Assembly: GCA_946480465.1 (NCBI GenBank)
Contig: CAMLJY010000014.1
Location: forward strand, 1 to 64,000
DNA: 64,000 nt
Direction of reading: 5' to 3'
DNA from: an uncultured Burkholderiales bacterium
Lineage (GTDB): Bacteria > Pseudomonadota > Gammaproteobacteria > Burkholderiales > Burkholderiaceae
The stretch's first letter is position 1. Each line of letters starts with the position of its first letter. Made by a program: the position numbers and the translations under genes. A model generated the notes under the pieces. The model had not been told where the DNA came from, did not search any database, and saw only the letters and a program-made list of their open reading frames with translations. Below are positions 48,784-54,233 of this stretch, piece by piece.

Positions 48784-50664
48784 ATGTGTCGGGGCGAATT
48801 GATTGCAGCCGTGGACTCCTCTTTCGCCGCCCTCTCTCCCCTGCCCGACCACCGGTCGGCACAGCCCCTCCCCGCCCCCCACACCCGCGAAGCCGCTGAT
48901 CTGATCGTCGAGAGCCTGGAAGCGCTCGGCGTCGAGTACGTCTTCGGTGTGCCCGGTGGCGCCATCGAGCCGCTGTACAACGCCCTGGCCCGCAGCAGCC
49001 GCCGTGGTGGTCCCCGGGCCATCGTGGCCCGCAACGAGCAAGGCGCGGCCTACATGGCCGACGGCTATGCCCGCGAGACCGGCAAGATCGGCGTCTGCAT
49101 CGCCACTTCCGGCCCGGGCGCGACCAACCTGATCACCGGCGTCGCCTGCTCCTACGACAACAGCGTGCCGGTGCTGGTGCTGACCGGCCAGCCGCCGATC
49201 CGCTCCTTCGGCAAGGGCGCGCTGCAGGAGTCCAGCTGCACCGGCGTCAACACCGTCGCGATGTTCCGCCACTGCACGCGCTACAACTCGCTCGTCTCTC
49301 ACCCGGACCAGCTGCCGGTGAAGCTGTTCAACGCGCTGATGCAGGCGCAGCGCGCACCGGCCGGGCCGGCGCACCTGTCGGTGCCGGTGGACATCCTGCG
49401 GCACCCGATCGGCACGCTGCGCGAAGGGCCGGACTTCGCCGGCCTGCTGCGCCAGGCCCCCGCGCTGGTCGACATCCATGCCGTCGACGCCCTGGCCGAG
49501 ATGCTGGAACAGGCTGAGCGCCCGGTCTGGCTGATCGGCGACGGCTGCGGCGAGGCCATTCCCGCGCTGATGCAACTGGTGCAGCTGACCGACGGCGCCT
49601 TCATCACCACCCCCGACGGCAAGGGCTTCATCAACCCGCGCCACCCGCGCTTCGCCGGTGTGTTCGGCTTCGGCGGCCACACCAGTTCCGCCGATCTGCT
49701 GGCCAGCCGGCCCGACATGGTGCTGGCGATCGGCACCGGGTTCGGCGAGTTCAACAGCGGGGGCTGGTCCGACCAGTTGCTGAACAGCCGGCTGGTGCAC
49801 GTCGACAGCTGTGACGAGAACCTGATGCGCTCACCGATGGCCCGCCTGCACGTGCGCGGCCGCATCGCCTCGGTGTGCGAACGCCTGATCAAGCGCCTCG
49901 CCCCCACCCGGGAGGGGGCGCAAGTGCTGCCCTTCCGCCACCCCGAGGTGGCGCAACTGGCCTACGAAGCCATGGTCGACAGCCCGGACGCGCTGCACAG
50001 CACGCAGTCGCCGGTGAAGCCGCAGCGGCTGATGGCCACGCTGGGTGAACGCTGCCCACCGCACACCCGTTTCGTGGCCGATGCCGGCAACAGCGCCGCC
50101 TGGGCGGTGCACTACCTGGCGCCGCGCGACCGCCGTGGCCACGCGGCACCCCGCGCGGCAGCCGCCGCCGGTCCGGTGCGCGAGATGCGCACCAGCCGCT
50201 CCAGCTGGCTGCGGGTGACGATGGACTTCGCGCCGATGGGCTGGGCCATCGGCTCCGCGATCGGCATCGCGATGGGCAACCCGCGCTGCCCGGTCGTCTG
50301 CTTCACCGGCGACGGCAGCTACCTGATGAACGGGCAGGAGATCACCGTGGCAGCCGAACTGGGGCTGCCGGTGCTGTACGTGGTGCTGAACGACGGCGCG
50401 CTCGGCATGGTCAAGCACGGCCAGCGCCTGGCTGGTGCCGAGCGCATCGGCTTCCAGCTGCCGACCGTCGACTACGCCGCGATGGTCGCCGCGATGGGCA
50501 TCCCCGGCCACGTGATCCGCAGCCCGCAGGAACTGGATGCACTCGACTTCGACGCGATCCTGTCCCGCCAGGGCCCGACGCTGCTGGACGTGCGCATCGA
50601 CGGGGAGGAAGTGCCCCCGATGAACCTGCGGATGAGAACCCTCGGCACAGCAAAGAAGACCTGA
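48784..50664 (+). CDS. Acetolactate-synthase-like thiamine-pyrophosphate enzyme
   Basis: About 626 aa from the ATG at 48784; TTG/GTG codons at 48799 and 48811 are alternatives. Three-domain POX/ALS fold: the N-terminal domain has GVEYVFGVPGGAIEPLYNAL and catalytic Glu in AIVARNEQGAAYMADGYARE, a central FAD/nucleotide-like domain follows, and the C-terminal TPP domain has CFTGDGSYLMNGQEITVAAE and VLNDGALGMVKHGQRL. It is longer than IlvB because of an insert between the central and C-terminal domains (PRDRRGHAAPRAAAAAGPVR). It has no regulatory subunit next to it and is followed by SDR, citryl-CoA-lyase-like and P450 genes, so it is more likely a specialised 2-keto-acid or 2-hydroxyacyl lyase/ligase than a housekeeping ALS. 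Confidence 0.85.
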   Translation: MCRGELIAAVDSSFAALSPLPDHRSAQPLPAPHTREAADLIVESLEALGVEYVFGVPGGAIEPLYNALARSSRRGGPRAIVARNEQGAAYMADGYARETGKIGVCIATSGPGATNLITGVACSYDNSVPVLVLTGQPPIRSFGKGALQESSCTGVNTVAMFRHCTRYNSLVSHPDQLPVKLFNALMQAQRAPAGPAHLSVPVDILRHPIGTLREGPDFAGLLRQAPALVDIHAVDALAEMLEQAERPVWLIGDGCGEAIPALMQLVQLTDGAFITTPDGKGFINPRHPRFAGVFGFGGHTSSADLLASRPDMVLAIGTGFGEFNSGGWSDQLLNSRLVHVDSCDENLMRSPMARLHVRGRIASVCERLIKRLAPTREGAQVLPFRHPEVAQLAYEAMVDSPDALHSTQSPVKPQRLMATLGERCPPHTRFVADAGNSAAWAVHYLAPRDRRGHAAPRAAAAAGPVREMRTSRSSWLRVTMDFAPMGWAIGSAIGIAMGNPRCPVVCFTGDGSYLMNGQEITVAAELGLPVLYVVLNDGALGMVKHGQRLAGAERIGFQLPTVDYAAMVAAMGIPGHVIRSPQELDALDFDAILSRQGPTLLDVRIDGEEVPPMNLRMRTLGTAKKT

Positions 50665-50675
50665 GCAAGAAAGCC

Positions 50676-51428
50676 ATGACGCAAAGACTCTCGGGCAAGA
50701 CGGCCCTCATCACGGGTGGCAGCAGCGGCATCGGCCTGGAGACAGCCAGGCTATTTCTGGAACACGGGGCACGAGTGGCCATCACGGGTCGGGACGAGAC
50801 CACCCTGGCCGAGGCGCGCAAGGCGCTGGGCAACGACGTGCTGGCGATCCGCAGCGATGCGAGCCGTGTTGGCGAGATCGAGCAGTTGATGTCGAAGCTC
50901 AAGGCCCGCTGGGGCCGGCTCGACGTGCTGTTCGTCAACGCCGCGGTCGCAGGACCGGCGCCCTTCGAGGCGGTCAGCGAGGCGCAGTTTGACGAGCTGT
51001 CGGCGATCAACTTCAAGGGCGTGTTCTTCACCGTGCAGAAGGCACTGCCCCTGCTGTCCGATCGCGCGTCTGTGATCCTGACCACGTCGATCGCCAACCA
51101 GATGGGCTCGCCCAACTTCAGCGTCTACGGTGCTTGCAAGGCGGCGCTGCGCTCGCTGGTGCAGACACTGGGCCTCGAACTGATCGGCAAGGGCATCCGC
51201 ACCAACGCTATCAGCCCAGGCCCGATTGAGACGCCGATCTGGGGCAAGTTCGGCCTGCCGAGCGAAGCCGAGCAGGCGGTGAAGGCGGAGGTGGAGCGCA
51301 AGTCGCCGGCCAAGCGCTTCGGCAAGGCTGACGAGGTCGCGCGGGCCGCATTGTTCCTGGCGTCCGACGACTCGTCCTATGTCGTCGGCCAGGAGCTCGT
51401 CGTCGACGGTGGCATGAGCCTGCTGTAG
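50676..51428 (+). CDS. SDR-family oxidoreductase of the TPP/P450 operon
   Basis: 250 aa classical SDR: cofactor loop ALITGGSSGIGLETARLFLE, VNAAVAGPAPFEA, catalytic Ser in ILTTSIANQMGS and YGACK (YxxxK), and the C-terminus VVGQELVVDGGMSLL. It starts 11 bp after the TPP enzyme stop and ends 3 bp before the next gene, so it belongs to a tight operon. The Asp/Arg pattern after beta-2 (ITGRDETTLAEARK) suggests NADP(H). It could reduce or oxidise the hydroxy-ketone product of the TPP enzyme; inference. Confidence 0.88.
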   Translation: MTQRLSGKTALITGGSSGIGLETARLFLEHGARVAITGRDETTLAEARKALGNDVLAIRSDASRVGEIEQLMSKLKARWGRLDVLFVNAAVAGPAPFEAVSEAQFDELSAINFKGVFFTVQKALPLLSDRASVILTTSIANQMGSPNFSVYGACKAALRSLVQTLGLELIGKGIRTNAISPGPIETPIWGKFGLPSEAEQAVKAEVERKSPAKRFGKADEVARAALFLASDDSSYVVGQELVVDGGMSLL

Positions 51429-53035: not shown

Positions 53036-53063
53036 CCATCCACTCCCCACCGTCCACGCCGCC

Positions 53064-54233
53064 ATGAGACCCGACCCGTATCCGCACTACGCCGCCATGC
53101 GCGCTAACGCCCCCGTTGCCTTCAACCCGACGCTCGGTGTCTGGGAGGTCTACGGTTATCACGACATCCAGGCCGTGATGGGCGATCCCGCCACCTTCTC
53201 GTCCAACATTTCGCAGCTGCAGACGCTGGTGTTCATGGATCCGCCGCGCCACACACAGCTGCGCAGGCTGGTCGCGCGTGCGTTCACCACCAAGGTCGTG
53301 GCGGACCTCGAGCCCAGCATCCGCGCGATCACCGACGCGCTGCTGGATGCCGTAGCGGACCGGGGCGAGATGGACGTCGCCGCCGACCTCGCGTTTCCGC
53401 TGCCGGTCACGGTGATCGCCGAGCTGCTGGGATTGCCGGTGTCCGATCGGGACCGGTTCAAGTCCTGGTCGGTGCCGGCGATCAAGGCTGCCGAGATGGA
53501 AATCCAGGGCCAGGTCCCCGAACCTCACCTGTTGGACGCGGTCGGTGAGTTGATGGATTACCTGGAGGCGCTGGTCATCGAGCGCGAGCGCCAGCCCCGC
53601 AGCGACCTGATCAGCGGCCTGGTCACCGCCACCGTTGACGGCGAACACCTGACGCGGCAGGAGATCACCAGTACCTGCCGGCTCCTCTTGATCGCGGGCT
53701 TCGAGACCACGGCCCACTTGATCGGCAACGCGACCCATCTGTTGTTGCAGCATTCAAAGGCGCTGGCAAAGGTGCGCGCAGACGAGGCGTTGCTGCCGTC
53801 GGCCATCGAGGAAGCACTGCGCTACCACGCCCCGTTCCAATTCTTCGCCCGCATCGCCACCCGAGACGTGGAGTTGGGCGGCCAGCTGATCCGCGCGGGC
53901 CAGCAGGTGATGATCTTCAATGCGTCCGGAAATCGCGACGAGGCGGCCTTTGCCGAACCGGACGTATTTGACGTGACCCGCACGCCGAATCGCCACTTGA
54001 GCTTCGGCCATGGCATCCACTTCTGCCTTGGCGCGGGACTCGGGCGGCTGGAGGCCCGAATCGCCATCGGCGCGCTGCTGCGCCGGTTCCCTGACCTGAG
54101 GCTGCACGACGCCAAGCCCCCGCTGCCGCAACCTTCCGCGGTTCAGTACGCTTGGCGCTCGCTGCCGGTGCAGTTCAGCCCTGAGCGAGCGAGCCACGCG
54201 ATGCTGGAACAGGACGCCTGCATCGCCAAGTGA
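53064..54233 (+). CDS. Cytochrome P450
   Basis: 389 aa soluble bacterial class I P450. Substrate-recognition N-terminus (MRPDPYPHYAAMRANAPVAF), FMDPPRHTQLRRLVARAFT, I-helix LLIAGFETTAHLIGNATHL, ExxR as EEALRYHAPFQFFARIATRD, and the haem loop FGHGIHFCLGAGLGRLEARI with Cys321 as iron ligand. It needs a ferredoxin and reductase, none of which are nearby. It starts 28 bp after protein B and closes the operon. Its substrate is unknown; it probably hydroxylates the operon's product or its precursor. Confidence 0.93.
   Translation: MRPDPYPHYAAMRANAPVAFNPTLGVWEVYGYHDIQAVMGDPATFSSNISQLQTLVFMDPPRHTQLRRLVARAFTTKVVADLEPSIRAITDALLDAVADRGEMDVAADLAFPLPVTVIAELLGLPVSDRDRFKSWSVPAIKAAEMEIQGQVPEPHLLDAVGELMDYLEALVIERERQPRSDLISGLVTATVDGEHLTRQEITSTCRLLLIAGFETTAHLIGNATHLLLQHSKALAKVRADEALLPSAIEEALRYHAPFQFFARIATRDVELGGQLIRAGQQVMIFNASGNRDEAAFAEPDVFDVTRTPNRHLSFGHGIHFCLGAGLGRLEARIAIGALLRRFPDLRLHDAKPPLPQPSAVQYAWRSLPVQFSPERASHAMLEQDACIAK

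Follow-up and report, generated by a model that had tools for sequence, protein, structure and literature searches.

A ThDP enzyme and two degenerate citryl-CoA-lyase-fold proteins found beside a TonB receptor, a periplasmic binding protein and a sensor kinase: a possible system for making and sensing a small molecule

What is the role of five close-packed genes for a TPP (ThDP) enzyme, an SDR, two citryl-CoA-lyase-like proteins and a cytochrome P450, and do these five genes form the complete unit? The question is raised by a 64,000-nucleotide stretch of DNA from an uncultured Burkholderiales bacterium (hereafter the window). A first-pass annotation had described five genes on the plus strand with gaps of 11, 3, -4 and 28 bp, and the re-derived coordinates are the same. 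The five open reading frames at 48784-54233 are intact and free of internal stops, with a third-position GC of 0.85-0.91 across the genes; judged from its sequence, the five-gene operon is real. The second half of the gene set within the window, at 54247-63135, encodes a TonB receptor, a periplasmic substrate-binding protein (SBP) and a sensor kinase, frequent partners that fall outside the bounds that the annotation had drawn. The features are as follows.

44632..46854, minus strand: TonB receptor, the third member of its family in the window, upstream of the five-gene operon (family HMM 970 bits)
48784..50664, plus strand: TPP (ThDP) enzyme of the CybE/acetolactate-synthase superfamily, proposed carboligase (Pfam TPP_enzyme_N/M/C)
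50676..51428, plus strand: SDR oxidoreductase, accessory (Pfam adh_short_C2)
51432..52241, plus strand: protein A, predicted degenerate citryl-CoA-lyase fold, core
52238..53035, plus strand: protein B, predicted degenerate citryl-CoA-lyase fold, core partner of A
53064..54233, plus strand: cytochrome P450, accessory tailoring enzyme (Pfam p450)
54247..56463 (ORF bounds), minus strand: TonB-dependent receptor belonging to the family that accompanies TPP-A-B (Pfam Plug and barrel; family HMM 994 bits)
57504..60110, minus strand: second TonB receptor of that family (family HMM 943 bits); the gene is probably shorter than this ORF call, which runs into the start of the SBP
59986..60954, plus strand: periplasmic substrate-binding protein (PF04392), proposed ligand sensor (Pfam ABC_sub_bind)
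61045..63135, plus strand: hybrid sensor histidine kinase, HAMP-HisKA-HATPase-REC (Pfam)

The core of the gene set is the trio TPP-A-B. The annotation had treated all five genes as one unit; the P450 and the SDR, matched in 5/46 and 6/46 stretches, are additions and were rejected as core members on these counts. The stretches bearing a P450 are the window and L001-L004 (Roseateles, Pelomonas and a Burkholderiales MAG). In all 42 stretches with a single call for A and for B, the A gene immediately precedes that of B in the same orientation, so the pairing is not a matter of chance, and a natural TPP-A fusion protein, found in one genome, points to a partnership between the TPP enzyme and A. The two families are large, with at least 2287 and at least 2941 proteins as listed at E<=1e-3, and the sources of A relatives among the matches listed include Geobacter, Ferrigenium and Roseateles. 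A plasmid-borne cluster was rejected, B being unmatched in the plasmid collection.

Counted from the ATG at 48784, the TPP enzyme has 626 amino acids; its true start is uncertain, since the frame is open upstream to a TTG at 48610 and homology to relatives begins only at residues 26-37. It had been set apart from housekeeping ILV metabolism, and this distinction stands: the enzyme reached no cut-off of the NCBIfam acetolactate synthase (ALS) models (best 25 of 54), its best score being 295.8 bits with TIGR00118, whose cut-off is 538.35. Plain ILV/acetolactate metabolism was rejected for this reason. The top PDB matches, which are also the nearest solved relatives, are the CybE homologues CsmA (8x3z) and BbmA (8x3x), the two top matches being at 2.3e-88 and 1.1e-75. 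Glu85, the GDG...N ThDP motif and Gly546 of the HGQ motif are kept in 38/38 TPP family genes above 800 bits, and the glycine at the position altered in the BbmA-G484F entry is likewise invariant (38/38). The ThDP catalytic Glu and the GDG...N motif are common to the wider superfamily, beyond AHAS/ALS.

Proteins A and B share about 23% identity, match no Pfam family at E<=1e-3 and remain below the thresholds of the NCBIfam citryl-CoA-lyase models (A 62.6 against 212, B 46.3 against 193). The citrate-synthase-type fold that had been claimed for them agrees with prediction, which gives both a citryl-CoA-lyase fold. The citryl-CoA-type lyase or synthase chemistry that had been attributed to them is not supported by the alignments, in which the catalytic His/His/Asp of citrate synthase (H274, H320 and D375 of the pig enzyme) are not kept in either family. 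Among the 33 rows of the A alignment, the first His position holds H in 12, L in 13 and others in 8, the second holds P in 20, S in 10, A in 2 and T in 1, and the catalytic Asp is found in none. The 30 rows of the B alignment contain no His at residue 104, to which the first His aligns, or at residue 105 (Tyr in 29/30), which sits in an alignment gap; the second His is deleted, just before the invariant Arg148, and the catalytic Asp is again found in none. With these residues lost, a role as classical citryl-CoA lyases was rejected. In predicted fold and in length, A and B resemble citryl-CoA lyase (6hxp) and the core module of ATP-citrate lyase, from which the two families differ by the missing His, His and Asp; unlike citryl-CoA lyase, they are two divergent paralogues and not one protein.

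The neighbourhood of the trio extends the unit further. A TonB match is present in 38/46 stretches, and the SBP gene is followed by a kinase gene on the same strand for 46 of 50 SBP genes (49 stretches, by script). Three others are followed instead by a REC-GGDEF-EAL gene, and for the remaining one (L111) the script named TonB as next, with the map showing a kinase between. Kinases with GGDEF/EAL occur in 14/46 stretches, and GGDEF/EAL and chemotaxis proteins are found near some loci. In four genomes (L157-L160) the genes are arranged as a close-packed, single-strand operon, TonB-A-B-TPP-SBP-HK, with gaps (from first ATGs) of -4 to 8 bp from TonB through TPP, -80 to 250 before SBP and -4 to 65 before HK. 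These six genes are the only ones common to the four stretches, whose flanks largely differ, and no permease or inner-membrane transporter is among them.

It could be argued that the trio is a biosynthetic operon whose regulatory neighbours are accidental, signalling genes being common in these genomes. Some stretches have no receptor or kinase nearby: among the 46, eight are without TonB, 14 without SBP and seven without kinase/GGDEF matches, several of them at contig ends. Twenty arbitrary 20-kb stretches of 20 B-positive genomes gave one TonB, no SBP and four kinase/GGDEF matches, as against 18, 16 and 18 in the paired B stretches of the same genomes, a comparison that favours the B loci since the family HMMs were trained on them. 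These HMMs were run over all 64 kb of the window and over up to ~21 kb of the other stretches. Of the 369 genomes sampled, 45 contain B at E<=1e-3, a number that falls to 41 at E<=1e-29. Across the 369, B and SBP occur together in 37, B without SBP in eight, SBP without B in six and neither in 318 (p=1.1e-36, uncorrected for kinship among genomes that are non-independent samples, with an SBP cut-off of 1e-40 picked after the table was seen); an SBP cut-off of 1e-5 gives 38 with both, seven with B only and 19 with SBP only (p=2e-30). Together with the paired control (signalling matches in 18/20 against 4/20) and the single six-gene operon kept despite largely differing flanks, this co-occurrence makes accidental neighbourhood, already disfavoured, very improbable. 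Identity matrices over 32 loci also correlate (TPP-SBP r 0.89, SBP-TonB 0.87, B-SBP 0.66), values inflated by shared descent. Long stretches were taken from 39 of the 44 B-positive genomes besides G001; of those left out of the 46, G198 and G262 carry TPP-A-B in short loci, and G024, G057 and G319 have weak or fragment matches only.

Since the core trio travels with a receptor, a binding protein and a kinase in many bacteria, we propose that its product is probably a small molecule detected by the cell that makes it. We hold with moderate confidence that TPP-A-B and the TonB/SBP/kinase genes form one system making and sensing such a molecule, whose ligand and signalling role we infer; the molecule may be a bacterial chemical signal of a kind not recognised before. 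The proposal is built on what the loci themselves display, namely gene content, conservation, co-occurrence, predicted folds and residue loss. The ThDP enzyme would decarboxylate a 2-keto acid and couple what remains to another partner of keto or acyl type, a carboligation suggested by its kinship with BbmA, CsmA and CybE. A and B may work with it by presenting or processing the acyl/keto partner, using a CoA-/carboxylate-type fold without citrate-synthase catalysis, and the SDR and P450 would tailor the product in this lineage. The product would then exit the cell, return to the periplasm via the TonB receptor and bind the SBP, which could set the phosphorelay of the adjoining kinase. The output may pass through the c-di-GMP domains, and at some loci also the chemotaxis proteins, that are encoded nearby.

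A sensor adjoining an enzyme can, as a counterpoint, detect the substrate of that enzyme. The TonB receptor and SBP-kinase pair would in that case respond to a compound from outside the cell, and the kinase would turn on TPP-A-B, with SDR and P450, to degrade it. Such substrate-induced catabolism would be expected to give the same association of TPP-A-B with the receptor genes, and the P450 and SDR fit it; sensor kinases often adjoin catabolic genes, and ThDP enzymes are able to act as lyases. We consider it unlikely, however, given that the six common genes include no inner-membrane transporter, that GGDEF/EAL and chemotaxis proteins lie close to some loci, that the trio is constant while sensor types vary, and that BbmA and CsmA are described as CybE-type carboligases (PMC12395478). 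Another alternative is that TPP-A-B build an alpha-hydroxy-carboxylate chelator, with the TonB receptor recovering its metal complex and the SBP-kinase pair reporting that complex. Nutrients or metallophores are the usual imports of TonB receptors, hydroxy acids chelate metals, and citrate for some siderophores comes from citrate-synthase-like or aldolase-type enzymes. The receptor also scores with siderophore, heme and B12 receptor models, below cut-off. The six-gene set without a permease, the GGDEF/EAL-bearing kinases and the other sensors carried by lineages without TonB/SBP argue against a metallophore, which we regard as improbable.

The self-made-signal reading can be set beside known systems. 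LuxP with LuxQ (AI-2) and TorT with TorS (TMAO) are pairings of a periplasmic binding protein and a hybrid kinase, and the window likewise has an SBP gene followed by a HAMP-HisKA-HATPase-REC kinase gene. This kinase has TorS as its first NCBIfam model (393 bits) and LuxQ as its fourth (299.3 bits), yet it reaches neither cut-off (676.5 and 1200); the SBP, unlike those of the two known pairings, is of the PF04392 type and weakly TrpX-like, and a TonB receptor and a different synthase are part of the set. The alpha-hydroxyketone signalling of CqsA/LqsA similarly combines a small carbon-chain signal, a C-C bond-forming (PLP) enzyme and a kinase readout, and reduction of a diketone by the SDR would be a parallel; here, in contrast, the enzyme is ThDP-dependent and the receptor chain is different. 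The TPP enzyme also resembles the CybE-type ThDP ligases (CybE, CsmA and BbmA) of furanolide routes in having BbmA and CsmA as closest solved relatives. In the passages of PMC8777810 on those routes, CybE is paired with CybF, annotated as of the 3-oxoacyl-ACP-synthase type, and no receptor set is mentioned there; here, predicted citryl-CoA-lyase folds partner the ThDP enzyme, and a receptor set stands beside it. No CybF-type (KAS-fold) partner is present among the five genes of the window or the six common to L157-L160, and a known furanolide cluster was rejected on this ground. If the proposal is correct, environmental bacteria would have a widespread make-and-read signal system and the citrate-synthase fold a new use; the molecule can be sought directly, since synthase and binding protein are often together. 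Even if the role were uptake or catabolism, the six-gene unit would be a testable pathway; the five-gene operon had been called undescribed, and a full-text search of open-licence papers with narrow multi-term combinations found no description of either unit.

Some loci without TonB/SBP adjoin other sensors, which favours the make-and-sense proposal. In L161 the neighbours are a Pkinase-AAA-GAF-HisKA_3-HATPase protein and a regulator of the REC-GerE type, homologues of both of which are found in L163 and L164; in L062 and L067 they are hybrid kinases whose further domains are of the PAS or GAF-like type, in part below cut-off. The gene set TPP-methyltransferase-TonB-SBP-kinase, found in one genome (L122), suggests that A/B are exchangeable while the ThDP enzyme and receptor stay. 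Receiver cassettes without the synthase occur at L111, L165, L166 and L167, and two 11-kb stretches (L065 and L068) contain B, TonB, SBP and kinase and neither A nor TPP. We tentatively suggest, at somewhat less than moderate confidence, a new signalling class combining a ThDP carboligase, a rewired citrate-synthase-fold pair, a tailoring SDR, P450 or methyltransferase, a TonB receptor, an SBP/kinase pair, c-di-GMP/chemotaxis output and receiver-only eavesdroppers. Ten SBP genomes lack a full B. Four of them have a family TPP enzyme: in G069 the contig breaks off after TPP, and at its end the opposite strand carries a C-terminal piece of B; in G211 the gene is at a contig edge; in G137 a methyltransferase stands where A/B would be; and in G209 the gene adjoins 2-oxoglutarate dehydrogenase genes. 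In the other six the enzyme was not found at 1e-60. The A profile matched none of the ten, a weak result from a run without a positive control, and the search with the B profile covered seven of the ten as well as G038. Conversely, SBP was unmatched at 1e-5 in G141, its place on another contig in G175 and G161 may be an effect of contig ends, and in G311 and G312 it looks truly separate from B.

In a phylum sample of 398 genomes, B was found in ten at E<=1e-29 (17 at 1e-3) and SBP in four at E<=1e-40 (26 at 1e-5). Strong B and strong SBP coincide in two, G001 and G091, both already in the class sample, and six of the ten strong-B genomes, these two included, have some SBP match at 1e-5. Among the eight new B genomes, SBP was not found at 1e-5 in four (G446, G478, G474 and G427), and in the other four (G470, G386, G392 and G438) a divergent SBP lies ~2 kb from B.

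The first-pass annotation had described a five-gene operon on the plus strand, running from a thiamine diphosphate (ThDP, or TPP) enzyme through an SDR and two citryl-CoA-lyase-like proteins, A (51432..52241) and B (52238..53035), to a P450. All five open reading frames (48784..54233) were confirmed, free of internal stops and separated by gaps of 11, 3, -4 and 28 bp. The start of the TPP gene is uncertain, as its frame opens with a TTG at 48610, upstream of the annotated ATG at 48784, and homology to relatives begins at residues 26-37 of the annotated version. Pfam families were assigned to three of the five products; A and B matched no Pfam family and gave only sub-threshold citryl-CoA-lyase models.

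The closest solved relatives of the TPP enzyme in a PDB search are the CybE-type ligases BbmA (2.3e-88) and CsmA (1.1e-75), with acetolactate synthases ranking behind; the PDB's BbmA is taken to be the protein meant in the published passage. Among the family genes, the 38 with scores above 800 bits (from 37 stretches, a 792-bit fusion and other lower scorers being excluded) all retain the Glu needed for catalysis, the ThDP motif and the Gly of the HGQ motif. This invariant Gly occupies the position altered in the BbmA-G484F entry, which is Gln in acetolactate synthase isozyme 1 (6lpi); a Gly there would suit a ligase whose acceptor pocket is wide. In furanolide clusters, CybE-type enzymes are accompanied by CybF, a partner of the 3-oxoacyl-ACP-synthase type (PMC8777810; PMC13288894), which the gene sets examined here lack. 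Full-text searches of open-licence papers did not turn up a description of the gene set.

The window also encodes putative uptake and signalling proteins around the operon:

44632-46854, further TonB-dependent receptor
54247-56463, minus strand, TonB-dependent receptor matching the family
57504-60110, minus strand, TonB-dependent receptor matching the family
59986-60954, periplasmic substrate-binding protein (SBP) matching that of other loci
61045-63135, sensor histidine kinase matching that of other loci

The three receptors belong to a single family and surround the operon. Between two of them, a 277-aa frame (56507-57337, minus strand) without a Pfam match resembles, by eye, a secreted SGNH-type hydrolase. 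The SBP family is PF04392. Two kinases scanned with Pfam are both HAMP-HisKA-HATPase-REC, one being extended with Hpt, GGDEF and EAL, and among the further genes scanned near the loci are chemotaxis proteins as well as a REC-SpoIIE/STAS pair. LuxP-LuxQ and TorT-TorS pair a binding protein with a hybrid kinase; here too a binding protein precedes a hybrid kinase, with model scores below cut-off.

In a sample of 369 genomes of the class to which the Roseateles relative belongs, B is present in 45 (41 at E<=1e-29). A set of 54 B sequences, fragments included, forms 39 groups at 70% identity. The window SBP is found in 43 of these genomes at E<=1e-40, a cut-off chosen after the table was seen; 37 genomes carry both, 8 B only, 6 SBP only and 318 neither (p=1.1e-36, not to be taken literally because the genomes are related). 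Counting all SBP matches at 1e-5 instead gives 38/7/19/305 (p=2e-30).

We annotated 46 stretches, namely the window, five further loci and 40 stretches from 39 genomes (G141 twice), leaving out five B-positive genomes of the search. A and B are both called in 42, always on the same strand with A first, and in a 43rd A and the TPP enzyme form a single protein (L047 16275-18935, genome G042: a natural fusion in one 886-aa frame, TPP 9-594, A 610-875). TPP and TonB genes are each called in 38/46, SBP in 32/46 and a kinase or REC-GGDEF-EAL protein in 39/46 (HMM matches: kinase-GGDEF-EAL 14/46, REC-GGDEF-EAL 17/46, MCPs 6/46); the accessory SDR and P450 appear in six and five. As a control, 20 B-positive genomes each supplied an arbitrarily placed 20-kb stretch away from the locus. 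TonB occurs in 1 of these 20 stretches and in 18 of the paired B stretches, SBP in 0 and 16, and signalling proteins in 4 and 18, a comparison biased in favour of the B stretches by HMMs built from the test loci. At L075, one SDR-A-B set is flanked by two TPP and two TonB genes, and at L041 an IS200-type transposase (11776-12321) separates the TPP gene from A. The system in G141 looks decayed: its B gene is split into two pieces ~518 kb apart (L078, L050), and a search for SBP at 1e-5 gave no match.

A second lineage (G470, G386, G392, G438) carries TonB-A-B-TPP-SBP-HK (HK, histidine kinase) on one strand. Measured from first ATGs, neighbouring genes in the TonB-to-TPP part lie -4 to 8 bp apart, and the gaps preceding SBP and HK are -80 to 250 and -4 to 65 bp. 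Beyond these six, no gene is common to the four stretches; L158 and L159 have flanking genes in common as well. Across 32 loci, identity-matrix correlations, all inflated by shared descent, are highest for A-B (0.90), TPP-SBP (0.89) and SBP-TonB (0.87) and lower for B-SBP (0.66), a pattern that would be expected if the receptor were tuned to a scaffold made by the ThDP enzyme. What is shown is gene content, co-occurrence and the predicted folds; from these we infer that the ThDP enzyme would form a hydroxy-keto or acyloin-type core, that A/B would supply or process a partner, that a lineage-specific SDR, P450 or methyltransferase would complete the product, and that the TonB receptor, SBP and kinase would read it. 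We give even chances to the system sensing its own product in this way; the rival explanations are that the genes serve substrate-induced catabolism or that the product is a metallophore.

Some loci are variants. In G446, G478, G474 and G427, TPP-A-B is present; the stretches examined contain neither TonB nor SBP, and the whole genomes give no SBP match at 1e-5. In three of these genomes (L161, L163 and L164) B is followed by an open frame of 1728-1779 aa, a Ser/Thr-kinase-AAA type protein that in L161 is Pkinase-AAA_16-GAF-HisKA_3-HATPase by Pfam. Next to it in L161 comes a REC-GerE regulator, of which the other two have homologues; L162 has a related Pkinase-AAA protein (by Pfam) upstream, close to the contig start. 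L062 and L067 have hybrid kinases that carry PAS or GAF-like domains, some of these scoring below cut-off. In six genomes with the SBP, no TPP enzyme of the family was detected at 1e-60, and four of them hold TonB, SBP and kinase together (L111, L165, L166, L167); such genomes could be receivers only, or incomplete. In G137, where neither A nor B was found in the genome, the gene run is TPP-methyltransferase-TonB-SBP-kinase (L122 7712-15293). Further along from TPP-A-B lie a MaoC-SDR fusion in L161 and an FkbH_N protein in L163, and at L197 (4413-11991, G209) a family TPP gene stands immediately upstream of 2-oxoglutarate dehydrogenase E1-E2-E3 genes.
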